Positions 35,217 to 46,745 of a stretch of 64,000 nt of DNA are shown here, piece after piece. The notes beneath the pieces were generated by a model. That model saw only the letters and a program-made list of their open reading frames with translations. It was not told where the DNA came from and made no database searches. The stretch lies in the IMG/VR virus record IMGVR_UViG_3300046777_002658, positions 62,001 to 126,000 of that record. The stretch is one strand, 5' to 3'. Positions within the stretch are counted from its first letter, which is position 1. Each line of letters begins with the position of its first letter. The stretch comes from a virus. The position numbers and the translations under genes were made by a program.

Positions 35217-35702
35217 TACAAACATACTTTTATTATGTTGCTACAACAAATCAAGCCTTTTACAGAAGAACAGGTTAGGAAAGTTTACCCCTTAGAGCAA
35301 GTAAAGGCTATCTTTGCTGGTGAACTAATAGCAGAGGGAAATGTTTACTGTGACTTTAGTGCCTCTTTACTAACAAATGACTATTTTCTTAGCGAAGCCT
35401 ACTTTATTGGCACAAGTGGAGCAGCTAGTCACACAGATGATGAATTTGCACAGTATGCTTATCATTTAGTGCTAGTTAACACAGGGTTAGTAGCTAAAGG
35501 TGTTAACCAACAAAACAACTTTGAACCACAAGTACCAGGTACAATCATCGTCTTAAACAATTGGGAATGGCATCACGCTATTAAAGACTCAAGAATTGGG
35601 ACTTCTGAAGATCCTATTTGGGTTTCTATTTGCTTTGATAGTGATTATGAGCTCACTGAAGAACAATTGATAAATATATTCAAGGAGTTTTTGAATGACT
35701 AA
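35214..35702 (+). CDS. Possible small 2OG-Fe(II) oxygenase- or cupin-like protein, 162 residues
   Basis: Segments ASHTDDEFAQYAYHLVLVN and PGTIIVLNNWEWHHAI give an HxD...H order with a Gly before the distal His, as in 2-oxoglutarate/Fe(II) oxygenases and some cupins. The Arg that binds oxoglutarate is not obvious. It overlaps the GHKL gene by 8 bases, so the two are coupled. Another start at 35235 is possible. Confidence 0.55.
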   Translation: MYKHTFIMLLQQIKPFTEEQVRKVYPLEQVKAIFAGELIAEGNVYCDFSASLLTNDYFLSEAYFIGTSGAASHTDDEFAQYAYHLVLVNTGLVAKGVNQQNNFEPQVPGTIIVLNNWEWHHAIKDSRIGTSEDPIWVSICFDSDYELTEEQLINIFKEFLND

Positions 35703-37371
35703 CACATTTAAGATAGGTATCAGCCCAAAGATTCTCGACAAAGCTAGAAACTTTTTTAACTCAACAACTGAAGATATTCTCAATGAGTTACTGCAGAACT
35801 CCCGCAGAGCAGGAGCCACTAAAGTTAAAGTTACAAAGAGTGTTAATGACAACACAGTAATTATTGAAGATAACGGCATAGGAATCTTTAATAACGGCGT
35901 GGCAATCAATCTTGGTGGCAGCAGTTGGTCTTCTAAAACTCAAGAAAAAGAAAGTCCTGCAGGTTGTGGGCTGTTCTCTCTAGCTAATCTTGACAGTATT
36001 ATAGAATCACACGGTAAGAAAGTACGCTTAAATGCTGCGGCATTTAATGGTGCAAGAGAAGTGGAGATTGAAGAATCAGATTTCCTAAATGGCACTAGAA
36101 TTACGTTTAGAAACGATGACAACGAGACCTTTTTCAATTGGATTCTAAAGAAAGCTTGTAAGTTTTACCCAGTTGAGGTTGAGTATAACGGAGTAGATCT
36201 GGACAAACCTAAGGATTTTCTAGAAGATGCTGTCTATGTACAAGAGTGGGAAGGTCTCAGAATTGGTGTTGTAAAAACTTACCAAAGGGTTGGCTCTGTG
36301 ATTAAGCTAAACTTCTATGGTTTAGAGATTAACTGCCCAGACCGAAGGAGACCTTACTTTAACGGAGTATTAGACAAAGAAGACCTACTTATAAAAATAG
36401 ACATCATAGATTGCTCTAAGTTGCAACTAGTCTTGCCCTCGCGTAAGGAAGTCGTATCAAATGACTTTTTAGAGCTGCTGTTTCAACAGGGTAGAAAGGC
36501 TGTCTTTAACTACTTTAAAGACTACTGTGCCGCTGGTGGTACCCATACCCTAAGTTATACGCTGTGGTTAGAAGCTAAGAATTGTTTTGGCATAGAACTA
36601 CCAGAAGCCAAAGAGAGTCTTATTAAATGGTATCCAGAGACAGATAAATATCATAATGAGTTTTGTAGTGAGCACGTAGAAGTAAAAGCTACAAATGTCG
36701 TGATCTACAACATTGCGCAGGAAAACTATGAGCAGCACACTCTCTACCGTAGTCTATGTATAAATAACAAGGCTCCAACATTGGTTTTTGCTAATAAAGA
36801 CTATGAGGGGTACTCCTGGTACAAGAGCCTTCCTAAACTAAAAGAAGTAGAAACAAAACTTACTTACAAAGGAATTACAGTTTCACTGCAGGAGGAGATA
36901 AACGAAGACCAAACTGATCTTCGACCTGACTGTATAGAGCTAGAGTTGGTCATAGAAACTTGTGGGTTAGATACAACAATAACTCTTTACACAGACCTTG
37001 TTTTAGCTGGTGGAGAATACTGCTGTGACCTCTATGAAGCAATAATCTTTTTGTCTAAAGATAGCAAAATAGAATTAGAGGAGCTAGTTAATGTTTTAAC
37101 TTTATGCTTTTTTATTCCCTGTGAAGATAGCGGCTCTGACAGTTATGAAACTCAAATGGAATATTTCAGTGGTGAAGTCTGGTCTCTTGCCAGGAGTTTA
37201 CTGCTGTCAGAAAAAGAGGCTGCTTTAGCAAGTATACAAGAGGCTGTAGAAAACCATATACGCTGTCTTGTCCCTTCTGGAAACAGGGCTGTAATTAAAA
37301 TTCAGCAGGGCTTAGTTACAGTTGACCTGGAGCTTCTAACAGAAAATACCCTTGAAGCAGTAAAAGAATAG
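35695..37371 (+). CDS. GHKL (Hsp90-type) ATPase-domain protein, 558 residues
   Basis: N-terminal ATP lid motifs: N35 in NELLQNSRRAGAT, D59-N-G-I-G63, and GCGLFSL at 90-96. This is the Bergerat fold of Hsp90, MutL and MORC-type ATPases. The remaining 450 residues are unrecognised and end in a helical part. Different from the rIIA-like gene at 43514. Coupled to the small oxygenase-like gene. May remodel a protein or DNA complex; the target is unknown. Confidence 0.8.
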   Translation: MTNTFKIGISPKILDKARNFFNSTTEDILNELLQNSRRAGATKVKVTKSVNDNTVIIEDNGIGIFNNGVAINLGGSSWSSKTQEKESPAGCGLFSLANLDSIIESHGKKVRLNAAAFNGAREVEIEESDFLNGTRITFRNDDNETFFNWILKKACKFYPVEVEYNGVDLDKPKDFLEDAVYVQEWEGLRIGVVKTYQRVGSVIKLNFYGLEINCPDRRRPYFNGVLDKEDLLIKIDIIDCSKLQLVLPSRKEVVSNDFLELLFQQGRKAVFNYFKDYCAAGGTHTLSYTLWLEAKNCFGIELPEAKESLIKWYPETDKYHNEFCSEHVEVKATNVVIYNIAQENYEQHTLYRSLCINNKAPTLVFANKDYEGYSWYKSLPKLKEVETKLTYKGITVSLQEEINEDQTDLRPDCIELELVIETCGLDTTITLYTDLVLAGGEYCCDLYEAIIFLSKDSKIELEELVNVLTLCFFIPCEDSGSDSYETQMEYFSGEVWSLARSLLLSEKEAALASIQEAVENHIRCLVPSGNRAVIKIQQGLVTVDLELLTENTLEAVKE

Positions 37372-38958: not shown

Positions 38959-39939
38959 ATGCAAACAAAATCAATTCCACCCAACTTGGAAAAGTTGGAG
39001 CATCTCAGAAGTCTTAAATCATCTATTCAGCACCGTCCACGCTCTTTGGCTAACTTTATTAAACCAAATGGACGCAGTGCTGATTTTTGTTTATCTATAG
39101 CCTATGGTTGTCTGCTGGGCTGCTCCTACTGTTATGTTCAACGCAACAACATTAATGGTAATCCTCTTACAATCTACTCAAATCGTAAAGAGCTGTTCAA
39201 TAAAGTAGTAAAGTGGCATAGTCAACTACCTAGCACTAAGCCTAAAAGCTTTAAACCTTGTGACTCTCCTTACCCTTCAGGAGAGTCAGACCAAATCAAC
39301 TATACCTATGACATAGGAGAGTCAGTAGATTTGTTGTTGAAAACTCTCTCAGAAGACGTTAATTGGTGGTTAGAAAAGCTAGTTGCTGTCTCTAGACTGA
39401 AACCCACCTTTGCAACAAAGATATCAACCCCTGTGGCTGTATCTTGTCTGATTGACTGTCCAAGCCCCCGCAAAGCCCGCATCAGAGCTTCTGTAGCCCC
39501 GCAGCATATTATAGACCAAACAGAGGTTCTTACAGCTAGTGTGAGCGATCGCATTGCTGGTCTGAATCTTGCCTATCAGAAAGGCTATGAGTGTCACTTG
39601 AACTTTAGCCCTATAGTTATTACTCCTACTTGGGTTGAGGACTACAAGAATCTTTTTCTTCAGATAGATCAATTGCTATCAGCAGAGGTAAAAGAACAGT
39701 TGCGCTGCGAGGTCATATTCCTAACTCACCATGAGAAGTTATCTCAATGGAACAGGGAAAACTTTCCTACAGATAGTGAGTCCTTATTGTGGACTCCTAA
39801 AAATCAAGAAAACAAAACTAATGGGCGTGGCTCCCAAGTTAGACGTTACAAATGGCAGCTTAAGTCTCTTTACGTAAACACTTTTAGACAGCTATTAGCA
39901 GAGTATATGCCTTATTGTAAAATAAGGTATAGCTTTTAG
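38959..39939 (+). CDS. Radical SAM protein of the spore photoproduct lyase type
   Basis: 326 residues. C51-x3-C55-x2-C58 (CLLGCSYC) binds the 4Fe-4S cluster. The context AYGCLLGCSYCYVQR and the closing segment YKWQLKSLYVNTFRQLLAEYMPYCKIRYSF (shown in part) fit the SPL family, which reverses UV-made thymine photoproducts using SAM instead of light. A phage of sunlit water would gain genome repair. Other radical SAM roles remain possible. The start is placed at the ATG at 38959, after TTAGCTTCCTC. Confidence 0.8.
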   Translation: MQTKSIPPNLEKLEHLRSLKSSIQHRPRSLANFIKPNGRSADFCLSIAYGCLLGCSYCYVQRNNINGNPLTIYSNRKELFNKVVKWHSQLPSTKPKSFKPCDSPYPSGESDQINYTYDIGESVDLLLKTLSEDVNWWLEKLVAVSRLKPTFATKISTPVAVSCLIDCPSPRKARIRASVAPQHIIDQTEVLTASVSDRIAGLNLAYQKGYECHLNFSPIVITPTWVEDYKNLFLQIDQLLSAEVKEQLRCEVIFLTHHEKLSQWNRENFPTDSESLLWTPKNQENKTNGRGSQVRRYKWQLKSLYVNTFRQLLAEYMPYCKIRYSF

Positions 39940-39989: not shown

Positions 39990-40018
39990 TTGCGCTTTTG
40001 GAGAAAGTAAGCTATACT
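39990..40018 (+). promoter_or_regulatory. Sigma-70-type promoter for the long RNA
   Basis: TTGCGC (39990-39995), 17-base spacer, TATACT (40013-40018). Confidence 0.6.
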
Positions 40019-40023
40019 AAGAA

Positions 40024-40685
40024 AAGTAGCAAAAGAGGGTCAGACAGCTAAGGCTGATAAAGACTCAATCTAATAGCTATTAGGCAGAGGTTACAACGGT
40101 CGTAACAAACACACTAGATAGGCGCGTTGGCCGGGCTCAGGGAAACTCCTCCCGGTATGGGGGCATATAGTCAACATAACGAACACCAACGATACTCACT
40201 GAACTTGAACCCTTCCAGTAATTATGGGCACTCCATAAGCTTAAAGTAGAAAAGAAAATACTGTTGAAAGACAGCTTCTATAGAGAGTTGGAACTGAAGA
40301 AGGGGCGTGGTACTGAGATCCTTTACCACGAGACGCGAAGAGGCATGAAGCCGTTAGAAACCGTCGAGCAAGTCTTCTATCTTTTGTGCTGCCTATTCAA
40401 CACTTTGTTCTACCAACAAAAGCACCAAACAATGCAAGCAAACTCCGTTCAGCGAAATCCCACCAGTAGAAGCAAGTTTATATTGCTGTTGGTAGAGCGG
40501 AGAGTAACCATAACAGATTGTAAGGTTAACTAGGATGTAGCAGACTTGGTAACAGAATGTCTTGTTACCTGTAAAAGTCGAGCAATCCAGGTAAGAACGT
40601 TTAGAAGGCATAGCCAAGGCGTAGTCGTATGACTGCGGGCAATAAGAGATTCTAGCATTGGCTGGAGTCTCTTATTGTTTTGAAG
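40024..40685 (+). ncRNA. Large structured RNA candidate, about 660 nt
   Basis: Gene-free, with its own promoter and terminator. Perfect stems seen: GTTAC/GTAAC (40091-40108); CGTTGG/CCAACG closing about 69 bases with an inner CCGGG/CCCGG (40124-40192); TTATGG/CCATAA (40223-40238); CGTGGTA/TACCACG (about 40305-40329); CTTTTGT/ACAAAAG (about 40381-40421); CTCCG/CGGAG (about 40443-40502); GGTAACA/TGTTACC (40548-40569); GTAGTC/GACTGC (40621-40636); and the terminal CAATAAGAGA/TCTCTTATTG (40640-40678) with TTTTG. Size and phage context recall GOLLD- or ROOL-type ornate RNAs, but no class can be assigned by eye. Confidence 0.6.
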
Positions 40686-40705: not shown

Positions 40706-41464
40706 ATGCTAAAGGATTTGATAAAGTCTAAAAAGAAAAAAATAGAACTTCTTGTAGAACTTCTTAAAGAGAAGCTAGACAAAAAAAGCAAGAAGCCACA
40801 ACGTTGGGTTCTGAGATTTACAAACTCTCAGGGATTTGCTAAAGAATCCTTACTAAACTTGCTGACAGAAATTGGCTTGTTCCAGTTCTACTCTAAGAAC
40901 AACAGTAAGCTACTTAACGTCTCTCAAGTAGTGTATTACTTAAAGAGCGGCTGGAAAGCACTAGAAAATGGTTACACAGCAGGCAAGTCATCTGAGGTAG
41001 AAATTCATCATATAGATGGTGATATTACCAACGATAGCCCTCACAACTTGGTTGCTTTATTCAGTGGAGACCACTATTACGTCTCTGCTTGCCAAAATGG
41101 AACTTTCAGACTGGAAGATTTTTTCTGGCAGAATAGCAAAGCCACCGACCAGCCAACCCTCTTTAATAATCAAGGTAGACCAATCAAGAACCACGCTAAG
41201 TTCCTGCAACGCATAATCGCAGCTACCCTCTTCAACACCCAACGCTGGCTAGAAAAAGCAGCAATGCGAACAGGTGCTAAGGTTAAGCAGATAGTAGGCT
41301 GGGTGGTCAAAAAGCTGGGTCAAGCAGTTGAAAAAGGTGTTCAGGCTATCAAGGCTATAGCAGTGAAGCCCCAAGAAAATCAGCTCGGCAGCCCTTTACT
41401 TAACTCTCCCAAAACTACTTGGAGAGAACTCAGAAGAGCTATTCTCAAACCTGTTATAGTTTGA
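40706..41464 (+). CDS. HNH endonuclease, 252 residues
   Basis: HNH_3-type core: H101-H102-I-D104-G-D...H113-N114-L (EIHHIDGDITNDSPHNLVAL). The N-terminus is strongly basic; the C-terminal 100 residues are Lys-rich and helical (KVKQIVGWVVKKLGQAVEKGVQAIKAIAVK). Probably a free-standing homing-type nuclease. The start at ATG 40706 is favoured because an upstream GTG-type start lies in the terminator of the RNA. It directly follows the large structured RNA. Confidence 0.8.
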   Translation: MLKDLIKSKKKKIELLVELLKEKLDKKSKKPQRWVLRFTNSQGFAKESLLNLLTEIGLFQFYSKNNSKLLNVSQVVYYLKSGWKALENGYTAGKSSEVEIHHIDGDITNDSPHNLVALFSGDHYYVSACQNGTFRLEDFFWQNSKATDQPTLFNNQGRPIKNHAKFLQRIIAATLFNTQRWLEKAAMRTGAKVKQIVGWVVKKLGQAVEKGVQAIKAIAVKPQENQLGSPLLNSPKTTWRELRRAILKPVIV

Positions 41465-42020: not shown

Positions 42021-42198
42021 AAGAGCTAGACGTAGGGCTAGAGGGTTAGAGAGAGTTAAGAAGATAATCAGGAGTTTAACAGGGACTTTTAGTTTTGAGT
42101 ATACTCACATAGTAATAAGAAGAGGCAGTGTTCAAGCTTTCTGCCTACCGTCTGGCTTTTTATTAAACTTATCTACTCCTGGTCTGTACTCGTTATGA
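42010..42198 (+). CDS. Basic hypothetical protein, 62 residues
   Basis: Overlaps the previous gene by 11 bases and the next by 4, so the three are coupled. A very basic start (SKRARRRARGLERVKKIIRSL) suggests nucleic-acid binding. Family unknown. Confidence 0.55.
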   Translation: MQSKRARRRARGLERVKKIIRSLTGTFSFEYTHIVIRRGSVQAFCLPSGFLLNLSTPGLYSL

Positions 42199-42866
42199 GA
42201 AACCCTCTTGACCACTATGACAGCCCCGGTTGGTTTGTAACTCACCTGCCAAATTACATTACTCTTGATGGTGTCGTAGGAGAACCTTGTTCAGGGGCCG
42301 GCAACCTCTCTTCTATCCTCCCTCACTTTAAGAATGTTCAGTCAGTCTGGACTAATGATATAAACAGAAATCTAAAAGCAGACTCACACTTTGATGCAAC
42401 TAACCCCAGAAGCTGGTTAGAGTTTCCAGAAACTGATTGGGTGGTCACAAACCCACCTTTCAACCAAGCCTTCCAAATTCTCCTCAACGCCTTCTTCTTT
42501 GCTAAAAAAGGTGTTGTTTTTTTTGTCAGGCATTCATTTACAGAACCAACAGAAGAACGAGGTGAGTGGCTCTCTAACCACCCCTGCTGGGCTAACTTGG
42601 TTTATCCAAGGTTTAAGTTTGTACAAAACAACAGAGGAACCTGGCAGACTGATAGCGCACCTATTGATGCTGTAATCTGGTTGAGGCATCCTCCAGCAAA
42701 GCTAGGTCTTTTAACTATTCCTAGCAGTAAAATAGTTGGGTTCTACAATGACCCCTCTAAAGAACCTACTACAGAACAACATTTAATTAACCTACAAATT
42801 GAAGAAGGAAAAGCAGAATATGCAGTGCAACAGGTGGAAGCAAGAAAAAGCTGCAGTAGCCCCTAA
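42195..42866 (+). CDS. N6-adenine-type DNA methyltransferase-like protein, 223 residues
   Basis: Motif I E30-P-C-S-G-A-G36-N binds SAM; motif IV N86-P-P-F89 is the catalytic (N/D)PP(Y/F) of amino-methyltransferases; NDIN at 54-57 is the acidic SAM-ribose loop. No target-recognition domain is obvious. The phage may modify its own DNA against restriction. Coupled to the small basic gene before it. Confidence 0.85.
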   Translation: MRNPLDHYDSPGWFVTHLPNYITLDGVVGEPCSGAGNLSSILPHFKNVQSVWTNDINRNLKADSHFDATNPRSWLEFPETDWVVTNPPFNQAFQILLNAFFFAKKGVVFFVRHSFTEPTEERGEWLSNHPCWANLVYPRFKFVQNNRGTWQTDSAPIDAVIWLRHPPAKLGLLTIPSSKIVGFYNDPSKEPTTEQHLINLQIEEGKAEYAVQQVEARKSCSSP

Positions 42867-43495: not shown

Positions 43496-43513
43496 AATAA
43501 AAGTTTGATTAAT

Positions 43514-45880
43514 ATGAAACTAACACCTTTAAATAAGTATTGTGCAACTAACATAGACTTAGAAGCACAATCAGAGCTTGAGCTGCCCACAGAAGGTGAT
43601 GCTAAAGCTATTCTGATGAATATGATCATCAGTAACCAGTATTCAGACCCTTTAAAAGCTGCTTGCAGAGAAGCTTTGCAGAATGCTTTAGACGCCAATA
43701 AAGAAGCAGGCAACCAGCATCTACCTATAATCATTAACCTACCAACTAAAGAAGAGCCTCAACTGACTATATCCGACAATGGTAAGGGGATTGATGCTGA
43801 AAGGTTTGATAACGTCTACAGGAAGATTGGTCATTCAACAAAAAGCAATGACAACGAATTTATGGGAGGTTATGGAATGGGCAGGCTTTCCATGCTTGCA
43901 GTAGCCTCTCAAGTGTTAATAAACTCTGTATCTGCAGGTATCTATTACCAGCACTCAGCCTACATAAAAGAATCAGGAAACATAGGCTTTGCAACTTTCA
44001 GCTCTCAACCAACAGACAAACCCTCTGGAACACAAATAGTTATCCCAATAGACACAAAAGACCACTTGGAAGTTAACAAACATATCAAAGAGTTAACTAC
44101 CTGGGTAGAGCAGCCTGTTGAGGTATATCACAATGGAGAGTTATGTAACAATATTCAAAACACAAGTGACTGGTCTTTAAAAGGTTGCTACAAAGATTGT
44201 CCTTGGTATCTTAAGTTTCAAAATTGCATTAATGTCGAGGTTACTATACTCCAGGGTGACTTGCCTTATCAATTAAGCGGAAAGCTTTACACTGACCTAA
44301 AAGATCACTTTAAAAATTCTGTCGGGGAGTGGAATTTAACAAGTGGGATAGAGCTAAAAAACAACCTAGAGCTAAAAAACAACCTGGTTATAAGAATGCC
44401 AGTAGGGTCTCTGGAGTTAACTCAAAGCAGGGAAAGTCTAAGGATAAATGAATTTAACAAGAAAGCCTTAGAATTTATTCCTCTGCTGCTAGAGCATATT
44501 AAAGAAAAACTTGAAGAAGCGTTACTCAGTCAACCAAGTCTAAGAGAGGTCATAAGAACGTTCTTTCTAAACTATCCATTTAGCAGCTTTGAGTTTAGAG
44601 GCAGGCAGTTTACTAGACAAAGCTATAGCTATTATAATGCTTACTCACTAAGTGATTATCGCAGAGTTTTTCCTGAAAAGTGCACTCTAATCTGGGGTAG
44701 CGAAGAAACAACAAAAAATGCGCTAAGGAGGTGGATAGCTAAACTTAGCAAAGCAACTAGTCCCTTAATCTATAAATGCACAAACAGTATACTACCCTTT
44801 CTAGACTGTGTGTGGGTTGTATATCCAGAAGGTACTACTAAGGTTAAACTTGAGTTTAAGATCAGACAAGCTCTAAATATACCAACTAGTAAGCATATTC
44901 TGTGTATACCTACAAACCAAGACCCGGAGGAGTACATAAAAACTCACCCGCTGTTCTCCTTACTAGAAGATGTTCTAGTCTATAAGCCAATACAAAAAGA
45001 AAGAAAATATAATTCTAAACCTACCACCCTAAAGTCTCTTATCAAAGGTGGTAGTGCCAGAACTCTTTTGTCTAACGCAGGATCATTATCTCAAGGAGTC
45101 TATAACTGCACAGAAAAAGTCTTTGAGCTACCTGACTCGGGTATTTATGTCAAAACAGATGAAGCAAAAACTAGGTTAGGTTCTTACCATATACCTAAAT
45201 GGTTAGACCAGAGTACACTGTTCTTTGTTAGTGACTCTATAGCAGAAAAACTAAAGGAAAACCCTCAGTGGAAGTCCTTTTCAGATTACTCTAAAGAGCA
45301 GTTTACTAACCTTGTAAATACCCATAGAAAAGGATTGGAGTTACTAGACTGGTCTGTTGATAGTACCTGGGTATCAGGTGACTGTTACTTCTGTGGGCTG
45401 CCTTGCAATGAATTTCTTGCTAAGGTCATCAAAAAATCAATGAGTGCTACAGCTCAAAACTCAGAAGAATTATCGTTGGTTAACCTACTTCTGCACCCAG
45501 ATCAAGCTTTTTGGTTAAGTAAAGCTGGCGACTCTTTTTTTGTTAACTTTAGCGAAGAGAGCGAAGAGAGCAAAAAACTTCAAAGCATTAAGAACAAACT
45601 CAAAAACAACCGCTGGAGTCTAGGTCAATATCAAGTAAAGGCACTGTCTACAACTCTTTCTGTCAAACCTTACTACACTAGCCCAAATGAGTACGCAGCC
45701 CTTAAAGTTCCTATCTTTAAGAAACTAGCAGACAAGTACCCTCTACTGATGCTGCTAATACAGAACGTGGAGATTGGTACTCAGAAACCCACCACAAAAG
45801 AAAACTTACCTCTGGCAGAAAGAAACCTGTTAGAGTCAATTGAGCAATACATGGAGCAAATAAATGCAATACATAATTGA
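43514..45880 (+). CDS. rIIA: rIIA-like protein with GHKL ATPase domain, 788 residues
   Basis: N-terminus SDPLKAACREALQNALDANKEAG (N57 in the N box), DNGKGID (88-94) and GGYGMGRLSM (118-127) give a Bergerat ATP site in the order seen in T4 rIIA. Its length is close to T4 rIIA (about 725). In T4, rIIA and rIIB act together on membrane energetics, lysis inhibition and exclusion by lambda Rex. The next gene is rIIB-like and overlaps by 17 bases, which supports the call. The start is at ATGAAACTAACA; an upstream TTG is less likely. Confidence 0.8.
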   Translation: MKLTPLNKYCATNIDLEAQSELELPTEGDAKAILMNMIISNQYSDPLKAACREALQNALDANKEAGNQHLPIIINLPTKEEPQLTISDNGKGIDAERFDNVYRKIGHSTKSNDNEFMGGYGMGRLSMLAVASQVLINSVSAGIYYQHSAYIKESGNIGFATFSSQPTDKPSGTQIVIPIDTKDHLEVNKHIKELTTWVEQPVEVYHNGELCNNIQNTSDWSLKGCYKDCPWYLKFQNCINVEVTILQGDLPYQLSGKLYTDLKDHFKNSVGEWNLTSGIELKNNLELKNNLVIRMPVGSLELTQSRESLRINEFNKKALEFIPLLLEHIKEKLEEALLSQPSLREVIRTFFLNYPFSSFEFRGRQFTRQSYSYYNAYSLSDYRRVFPEKCTLIWGSEETTKNALRRWIAKLSKATSPLIYKCTNSILPFLDCVWVVYPEGTTKVKLEFKIRQALNIPTSKHILCIPTNQDPEEYIKTHPLFSLLEDVLVYKPIQKERKYNSKPTTLKSLIKGGSARTLLSNAGSLSQGVYNCTEKVFELPDSGIYVKTDEAKTRLGSYHIPKWLDQSTLFFVSDSIAEKLKENPQWKSFSDYSKEQFTNLVNTHRKGLELLDWSVDSTWVSGDCYFCGLPCNEFLAKVIKKSMSATAQNSEELSLVNLLLHPDQAFWLSKAGDSFFVNFSEESEESKKLQSIKNKLKNNRWSLGQYQVKALSTTLSVKPYYTSPNEYAALKVPIFKKLADKYPLLMLLIQNVEIGTQKPTTKENLPLAERNLLESIEQYMEQINAIHN

Positions 45881-46745
45881 CGACAAGCACATCACCATTC
45901 ACAAAGACGGTAAAACCCACTTGATCTCAAAGGATTCAAACTCCTACTTTGACTTTATTAAGAGCACGCTGCTGAAAGCAGGAACAGCAAACACTAATCT
46001 CTTAAGTTGGGGTGGACAAATAAAACAAGCAACTGCTGGAGCTTTTAATTATAACAAGGGAAAGTTCTATTATGAAGATGAACCAGTCCCTAAGTCAGTT
46101 GGTGAGAGAATTAAAGAGTTGGAAGACCAGAATCTTCCTTTTCAACCTTTGATCAACTTTTGGTTAAAGCTCAAAGACCACCCAGATAGAGAAATAAGAG
46201 AAAAATTAGGTCAGTCAGCAGGTAGACCTGGCATACCTTTGACTTGGGATGGAGACTTAATCCTTTACACTCGTGCAAGCTGGGTTCCTCCATCTGCTGA
46301 CAAAGAAGAAATAACCAGTCTAACAAACCTTAATAGGTTTACACGTTTGGACTGGAGTAGTAACAAGTTTACCCCAGGAAAAACAATGGTTTCATCGACA
46401 GCACTAATCTGTGGTGACTTTACCTGGATAACAGAGGTATGCCCTGATGCTGGAGTTATCTATGATATTCAAGTAAACCCTCTTCATGTTGTTAAAAGCA
46501 GCCCATTGGGCGGTAAACTAGAAGTAAGCCAGTTTACCTACCTTTCCCAGCTGGAGGAGCATTCTGCGCTGACTGACAAGATATTCTTTGTTAAAGTAGA
46601 GACTAACACTTTTGGGAAGCAGCTAGTGGTAAGAAAACCCTATTCTCCTGAGTCTCTAAGAGAGTATTTGGCTAATTTGATGCCTGGCACTAATAAAATG
46701 AAAGAGACTGAGAGTCAAACTGTTTCAGTGCGCGGCGGTTGTTAA
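45864..46745 (+). CDS. rIIB: rIIB-like protein, 293 residues
   Basis: The middle (PFQPLINFWLKLKDHPDREIREKL, then GIPLTWDGDLILYTRAS) matches the rIIB pattern of PLxxFxxNLxxNPS followed by xITxDGxxLAYK. The C-terminal half resembles the rIIB region with VNPxxVV. The gene order rIIA-rIIB with an overlap is the same as in T4. A small GGGAG/CTCCC hairpin follows (46756-46773). Confidence 0.75.
   Translation: MQYIIDDKHITIHKDGKTHLISKDSNSYFDFIKSTLLKAGTANTNLLSWGGQIKQATAGAFNYNKGKFYYEDEPVPKSVGERIKELEDQNLPFQPLINFWLKLKDHPDREIREKLGQSAGRPGIPLTWDGDLILYTRASWVPPSADKEEITSLTNLNRFTRLDWSSNKFTPGKTMVSSTALICGDFTWITEVCPDAGVIYDIQVNPLHVVKSSPLGGKLEVSQFTYLSQLEEHSALTDKIFFVKVETNTFGKQLVVRKPYSPESLREYLANLMPGTNKMKETESQTVSVRGGC

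Follow-up and report, generated by a model that had tools for sequence, protein, structure and literature searches.

Two unrelated small RNAs of cyanobacteria, one of them related to SroH of E. coli, have homologs that adjoin on the same strand of a single phage genome. The window that we analysed is a 64,000-nt stretch of DNA, bases 62001-126000 of the 196,877-bp virus record IMGVR_UViG_3300046777_002658. The virus may infect cyanobacteria, and the stretch at 40024-40685 of the window may be transcribed as one long non-coding RNA, as we predict; the two homologs, which we call modules 2 and 3, lie in its 3′ part. In cells, each of the two RNAs converges on a protein gene, yjaZ for the first and a DUF3800 gene for the second. 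Both RNA families covary, both protein genes are missing from the phage, and other phages carry these RNAs alone as well. We tentatively propose, with confidence a little short of even, that the RNA of this unit is a two-in-one decoy or antitoxin mimic directed against two host RNA-protein systems. Its expression, its binding to proteins, the nature of the host pairs as toxin-antitoxin or defence systems, and an anti-defence outcome are what we infer as most likely.

The unit fills a gap between the end of a spore-photoproduct-lyase (SPL)-like gene (39939) and the start of an HNH-like gene (40706). An earlier note on this DNA had described it as gene-free and as a large structured RNA of the phage, and both descriptions held. 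Each of the six frames contains 7 to 18 stops, the codon log-odds are about 0 compared to 0.17-0.27 for the adjoining genes, which score as coding, and the short open reading frames had no match in Pfam. The minimum free energy (MFE) of the 662-nt RNA is -199.7 kcal/mol, whereas dinucleotide shuffles reach -170.2 ± 7.7 (z = -3.85), and the excess over the shuffles sits mainly within the 3′ 300 nt. The MFE model itself contains many short stems, as in any 660-nt RNA. For the 3′ 84 nt, z falls to -7.3. The terminal hairpin that the note had predicted is present and strong, but it is a near-perfect stem of about 19 bp instead of 10 bp. A consensus scan found no terminator above threshold, and the stem is followed by only a short T run; a T-rich stretch following a hairpin also closes the host small RNAs of both kinds. 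The boxes proposed as a promoter (TTGCGC-N17-TATACT) are likewise there, but their agreement with the consensus is limited to 3/6 and 5/6 positions. This promoter is weak and fell below the threshold of the consensus scan, which found none above it. The features of the unit are collected in the table.

Table. Features in and around the non-coding unit (window coordinates)
Feature	Position	Strand	Basis
Candidate promoter TTGCGC-N17-TATACT, weak -35	39990..40018	+	read from sequence
Structured non-coding transcript unit (predicted)	40024..40685	+	no coding signal, MFE z = -3.85
5′ domain	40024..40530	+	no homolog found
Module 2, diverged copy of cyanobacterial sroH-like small RNA	40531..40606	+	blastn, alignment, model R2
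Module 3, copy of DUF3800-linked cyanobacterial small RNA	40604..40642	+	blastn, model R1, covariation
Module 3 hairpins, the second with GUAU loop	40607-40615; 40620-40637	+	within module 3
Terminal hairpin, probably an intrinsic terminator (short T run)	40638..40679	+	fold z = -7.3
HNH-endonuclease-like gene, adjoining the unit	40706..41464	+	PF13392, PHROG HNH

At gathering thresholds, Rfam 15 finds nothing but a tRNA in the whole window and places the unit in no family. Relaxing the filters to E = 10 on the unit did not bring up any model of GOLLD, ROOL, OLE, HEARO, or group I or II introns. Weak matches to BSnc120, Hrs13, snoRNAs, and lncRNAs remained below the gathering thresholds and were set aside as chance. 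The unit had been likened to GOLLD and ROOL, with which it shares being a large phage non-coding RNA. Its size, its location in a phage, a tRNA-Arg gene about 5 kb upstream, and folding that beats the shuffles would all suit a giant, ornate RNA that multimerises. However, it matches neither the sequences nor the covariance models of GOLLD and ROOL, or the model of OLE, even at relaxed thresholds, and what can be recognised in its 3′ part corresponds to two small host RNAs. Covariation in relatives, which the note looked to for such an RNA, was found for the two small-RNA modules at the 3′ end and not for one giant fold. We consider it very unlikely that the unit is a GOLLD/ROOL-like RNA.

The HNH signal of the gene downstream of the unit is weak, though consistent: PF13392 gives E = 0.0013, below the cut-off, and the PHROG HNH families give E of about 0.002. 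It does adjoin the RNA, as the note had said, but nothing ties the two together in support of the suggestion that they could move as one. Adjacency to this gene is what would speak for a self-splicing intron or a homing element moving with it. The Rfam intron models and HEARO are silent on the unit. No split gene is evident, because the match of the SPL-like gene to its family reaches the C-terminal end (positions 73-336 of 338 in the profile). None of the relatives of modules 2 and 3 that we read has a homolog of this HNH gene next to it. An intron or homing element is extremely unlikely. IMG/VR yielded no protein closely related to the HNH protein. Several neighbours are worth recording in their own right. 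The SPL-like gene (radical SAM) that immediately precedes the RNA, at 38959-39939, is unusual phage cargo. A short DNA-methyltransferase-like gene (42195-42866) lies close behind the HNH gene, rIIA-like and rIIB-like genes stand side by side (43505-45880 and 45864-46745), and there is another HATPase-domain gene at 35695-37371.

Module 2 was recognised by blastn, which matched it to two cyanobacterial genomes (77% over 71 nt, E = 4e-7). In the host, a TATAAT box precedes the matching RNA, and the match begins at the first bases of that RNA. This host RNA is a small RNA of about 130 nt with a promoter and a terminator, present at 28 Nostocales loci, and it matches the full Rfam sroH model (RF00372) with 61.9 bits (E = 3e-14). 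On the phage unit, a relaxed Rfam scan had given sroH 10.3 bits at 40503-40607, which later proved to be the right place; both scores are below the sroH gathering threshold of 80 bits. We then have the result of R2, a covariance model of the cyanobacterial sroH-like RNA built without the window sequence: its only match in the window is 40532-40610, with 25.9 bits (E = 0.0015 in 102.7 kb). A direct alignment scored 61, while 500 shuffles gave a maximum of 30. The sroH-like family covaries. Since the phage copy retains the fewest consensus pairs among the 34 members of the family, 17 of 23, module 2 may be decaying or altered. Two sequence patterns were also tried. The pattern GGATGYAGCAGACTTGG gave ten matches in viral contigs, all by chance and without sroH structure, and GATGYAGCAGAC...GTTACC...GTCGAG gave one, also by chance.

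SroH has been known as a small RNA of E. coli for two decades. At 13 of the 28 cyanobacterial loci (L055, L058, L062-L064, L068, L069, L071, L072, L074, L075, L079, and L080), a gene of about 185 codons converges on the sroH-like RNA from some 100-165 bp behind it, and the products of these 13 intact genes are YjaZ homologs (phmmer E from 4e-52 to 2e-33). An adjacent intact YjaZ gene is missing at about half of the loci. The same arrangement exists in E. coli K-12 (L083:3787-4488), where sroH (4190327-4190487, minus strand) directly converges on yjaZ (4189786-4190325, plus strand). Judged from sequence, sroH and yjaZ look like an unrecognised two-part system that extends from E. coli to the Nostocales. 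NCBIfam names YjaZ a "stationary phase growth adaptation protein," and the protein gave no Pfam, PADLOC, or convincing PDB match. Weak matches of a YjaZ structure model to toxin-antitoxin proteins of the HigB type were discounted, the model being too poor (pLDDT 52, built on a four-sequence alignment).

Module 3 surfaced as a 40-nt piece of the unit that matched, by blastn, the Leptolyngbya phages LPP-2 and Lsp-JY17 and a Geminocystis plasmid. A pattern scan also located it in one IMG/VR contig and five cyanobacterial genomes. R1, a covariance model of this family, was built from seven sequences; searching 386 cyanobacterial genomes with it returned further, more diverged members. The phage copy scores 58.9 bits against R1, being itself one of the seven sequences in the model. 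It has the features of the family, which are a hairpin of 4 bp with a 3-nt loop, a hairpin of 7 bp with a GUAU loop, and a G-rich linker, and its alignment score is 47 against a shuffle maximum of 25. Both sides have changed in 7 of the 11 base pairs of the family, a covariation score that none of 500 shuffles reached and that no slid register comes near. The copy in our phage has hardly diverged, and it shows a compensatory change of a G-C pair to C-G. We rejected a kissing interaction between the two loops (AUA with UAU), as loop 1 varies (AUA, ACA, UCA) and loop 2 is constant.

In cyanobacterial chromosomes and on the plasmid, the module 3 RNA is a stand-alone small RNA made up of promoter boxes resembling TTGACA/TATAAT, about 35 nt of two hairpins, and a terminator hairpin. 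All 12 readable chromosomal and plasmid loci (L018-L021 and L023-L030) have a DUF3800 gene, or what remains of one, behind this RNA in convergent orientation. A two-hairpin small RNA convergent to a DUF3800 gene is also seen at L006:4999-5794. No Rfam model matches this RNA, those of the DUF3800 motifs included, and it is a new member of the group of DUF3800-associated RNAs. DUF3800 proteins have an RNase-H fold and are associated with non-coding RNAs and CRISPR loci (PMC10910872, PMC12669027).

Neither DUF3800 nor YjaZ, nor a remnant of either, is detectable in the 197-kb record of the phage. The convergent DUF3800 gene is absent from all other tested phage carriers of module 3 too, namely LPP-2, Lsp-JY17, and the contigs G001 (L004), G675 (L092), G676 (L096), G677 (L099), and G678 (L103). 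Such solo copies, a partner RNA in a phage that lacks the protein, are a mark of phage RNA mimics. YjaZ was not found among 50,697 phage records. A full-length sroH homolog lies directly upstream of the terminase gene in Vibrio phage 1.262.O (MG592626; L084:2499-2627), whose record has no YjaZ. Solo sroH also occurs near an Ogr-like gene at L086:6584-6674 and L091:2974-3061, on contigs with portal, terminase, and Ogr-like genes; from their P2-like portal and Ogr-like genes, we take these contigs to be P2-like phages. On some viral contigs sroH and YjaZ are together (L087-L090). Since this is so, and since about half of the cyanobacterial loci lack an intact YjaZ, solo sroH is not diagnostic of mimicry. 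The two modules are joined on one predicted transcript in this phage only, and no second genome with both was found among those searched. Looking through the HNH, SPL-like, and rIIA-like proteins, we found no close relatives of the phage.

The location of the phage copies bears on a different explanation. The modules could be host-derived regulatory or 3′-end-stabilising elements which the phage uses for gene control, with no anti-defence role; standing before a terminator or ahead of late genes, they would tune transcript ends. This is how they are placed in some phages: in LPP-2 and Lsp-JY17, module 3 is directly behind the capsid gene region and ahead of a terminator, and the RNAs of L096 and of Vibrio phage 1.262.O are directly before terminase genes. 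One EMSA study, moreover, observed binding of kbl mRNA by E. coli SroH (PMC6172242). However, cellular copies of module 3 pair with a dedicated protein gene and not with assorted operon ends, and simple reuse of terminators would not predict two unrelated host small RNAs in one transcript. We regard such a regulatory role as unlikely. The copy at L096:4412-4450 is 107 nt before a small-terminase-like gene, with no evident terminator behind it. In Lsp-JY17, a convergent integrase gene and a tRNA-Gly come after module 3 (L005:3001-4562), and LPP-2 has at that place a gene for an HNH-type recombination endonuclease and no integrase. Because the two phages differ there, the spot behind module 3 may be an insertion site.

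A third explanation is that the unit is a degraded cargo island. The phage would have gained two host RNA-protein pairs and lost the protein genes, leaving the RNAs as orphans or anti-addiction remnants. Cellular genomes do contain sroH-like RNAs that are orphans, as well as DUF3800 and YjaZ genes in decay, and module 2 is the most diverged of its family. This origin does not explain the near-perfect conservation of module 3 with its compensatory pair. It also sits poorly with the arrangement of the RNAs, which run in the same direction with no spacer, versus convergent pairs in cells, and with a record that shows no detectable remnant of either protein. We find it quite unlikely.

The mimicry that we favour would work as follows. 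The last third of the phage transcript would be tandem mimics of two unrelated host small RNAs, and this RNA would be made during infection. The module RNAs would bind host YjaZ and DUF3800, taking the place of these proteins' own RNAs. Binding would either keep the host proteins inactive, in the style of an RNA antitoxin, or jam the RNA-protein complex, so that one transcript neutralises two host systems. Several points weigh against this explanation. The roles of YjaZ and of these DUF3800 proteins as toxins or defence are putative. Solo sroH is not peculiar to phages, and module 2 keeps just 17 of 23 pairs. The tandem comes from one genome, and its expression is predicted from a weak promoter.

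The two modules also leave four fifths of the transcript unexplained. The 5′ domain had no credible match in phages, plasmids, or Rfam, nor in a phylum sample of about 390 cyanobacterial genomes and 391 genomes of one order. Isolated matches of 19-50 nt to these 500 nt or so have a per-genome E of about 3e-4 or worse, which is not credible over some 390 genomes. The domain could hold further modules, a scaffold, or nothing. A broader proposal, which we find doubtful, is that the transcript is a modular multi-antidote RNA. It would carry the sroH-like RNA against YjaZ, the two-hairpin RNA against DUF3800, and perhaps more in its 5′ 500 nt. Several defence or toxin systems of the RNA-protein type would thus be disarmed together, and sroH-YjaZ would count among them, with a range from E. 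coli to cyanobacteria.

If the mimicry is true, a single RNA of the phage combines decoys for two distinct host systems. The analysis points to two conserved RNA-protein gene pairs, sroH-YjaZ and the two-hairpin small RNA with DUF3800. The convergence of sroH and YjaZ from E. coli to the Nostocales, together with solo carriage by phages, yields a concrete hypothesis that is testable in E. coli.

Several known RNAs are close to parts of the unit. Module 2 copies, in diverged form, a cyanobacterial RNA that resembles Rfam sroH (RF00372) and E. coli SroH. Unlike sroH, it has only the first ~75 nt, 6 of the 23 consensus pairs are broken, and module 3 stands where the 3′ hairpin and terminator would be. 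Like the DUF3800-associated motifs of Rfam (DUF3800-I, DUF3800-IX, and others), the cellular module 3 RNA is a small structured RNA beside a DUF3800 gene, but the cyanobacterial family matches none of these motifs, and the gene is missing in the phages. Phage RNA mimicry as such is proven for RNA anti-CRISPRs (Racrs) (PMC10651486). As with Racrs, which phages or plasmids encode, the unit would be a solitary mimic of a host defence RNA; the putative targets here, predicted from sequence, are DUF3800 and YjaZ partners and not CRISPR-Cas. Mimicry is also proven for pseudo-ToxI of phage PhiTE, which imitates the RNA of a type III toxin-antitoxin system (PMC3475682). The likeness is a phage copy of a protein-partnered host RNA with the protein absent. 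Unlike pseudo-ToxI, with the toxin-antitoxin nature of the host pairs being putative, our phage has copies of two unrelated host RNAs on one long predicted transcript.
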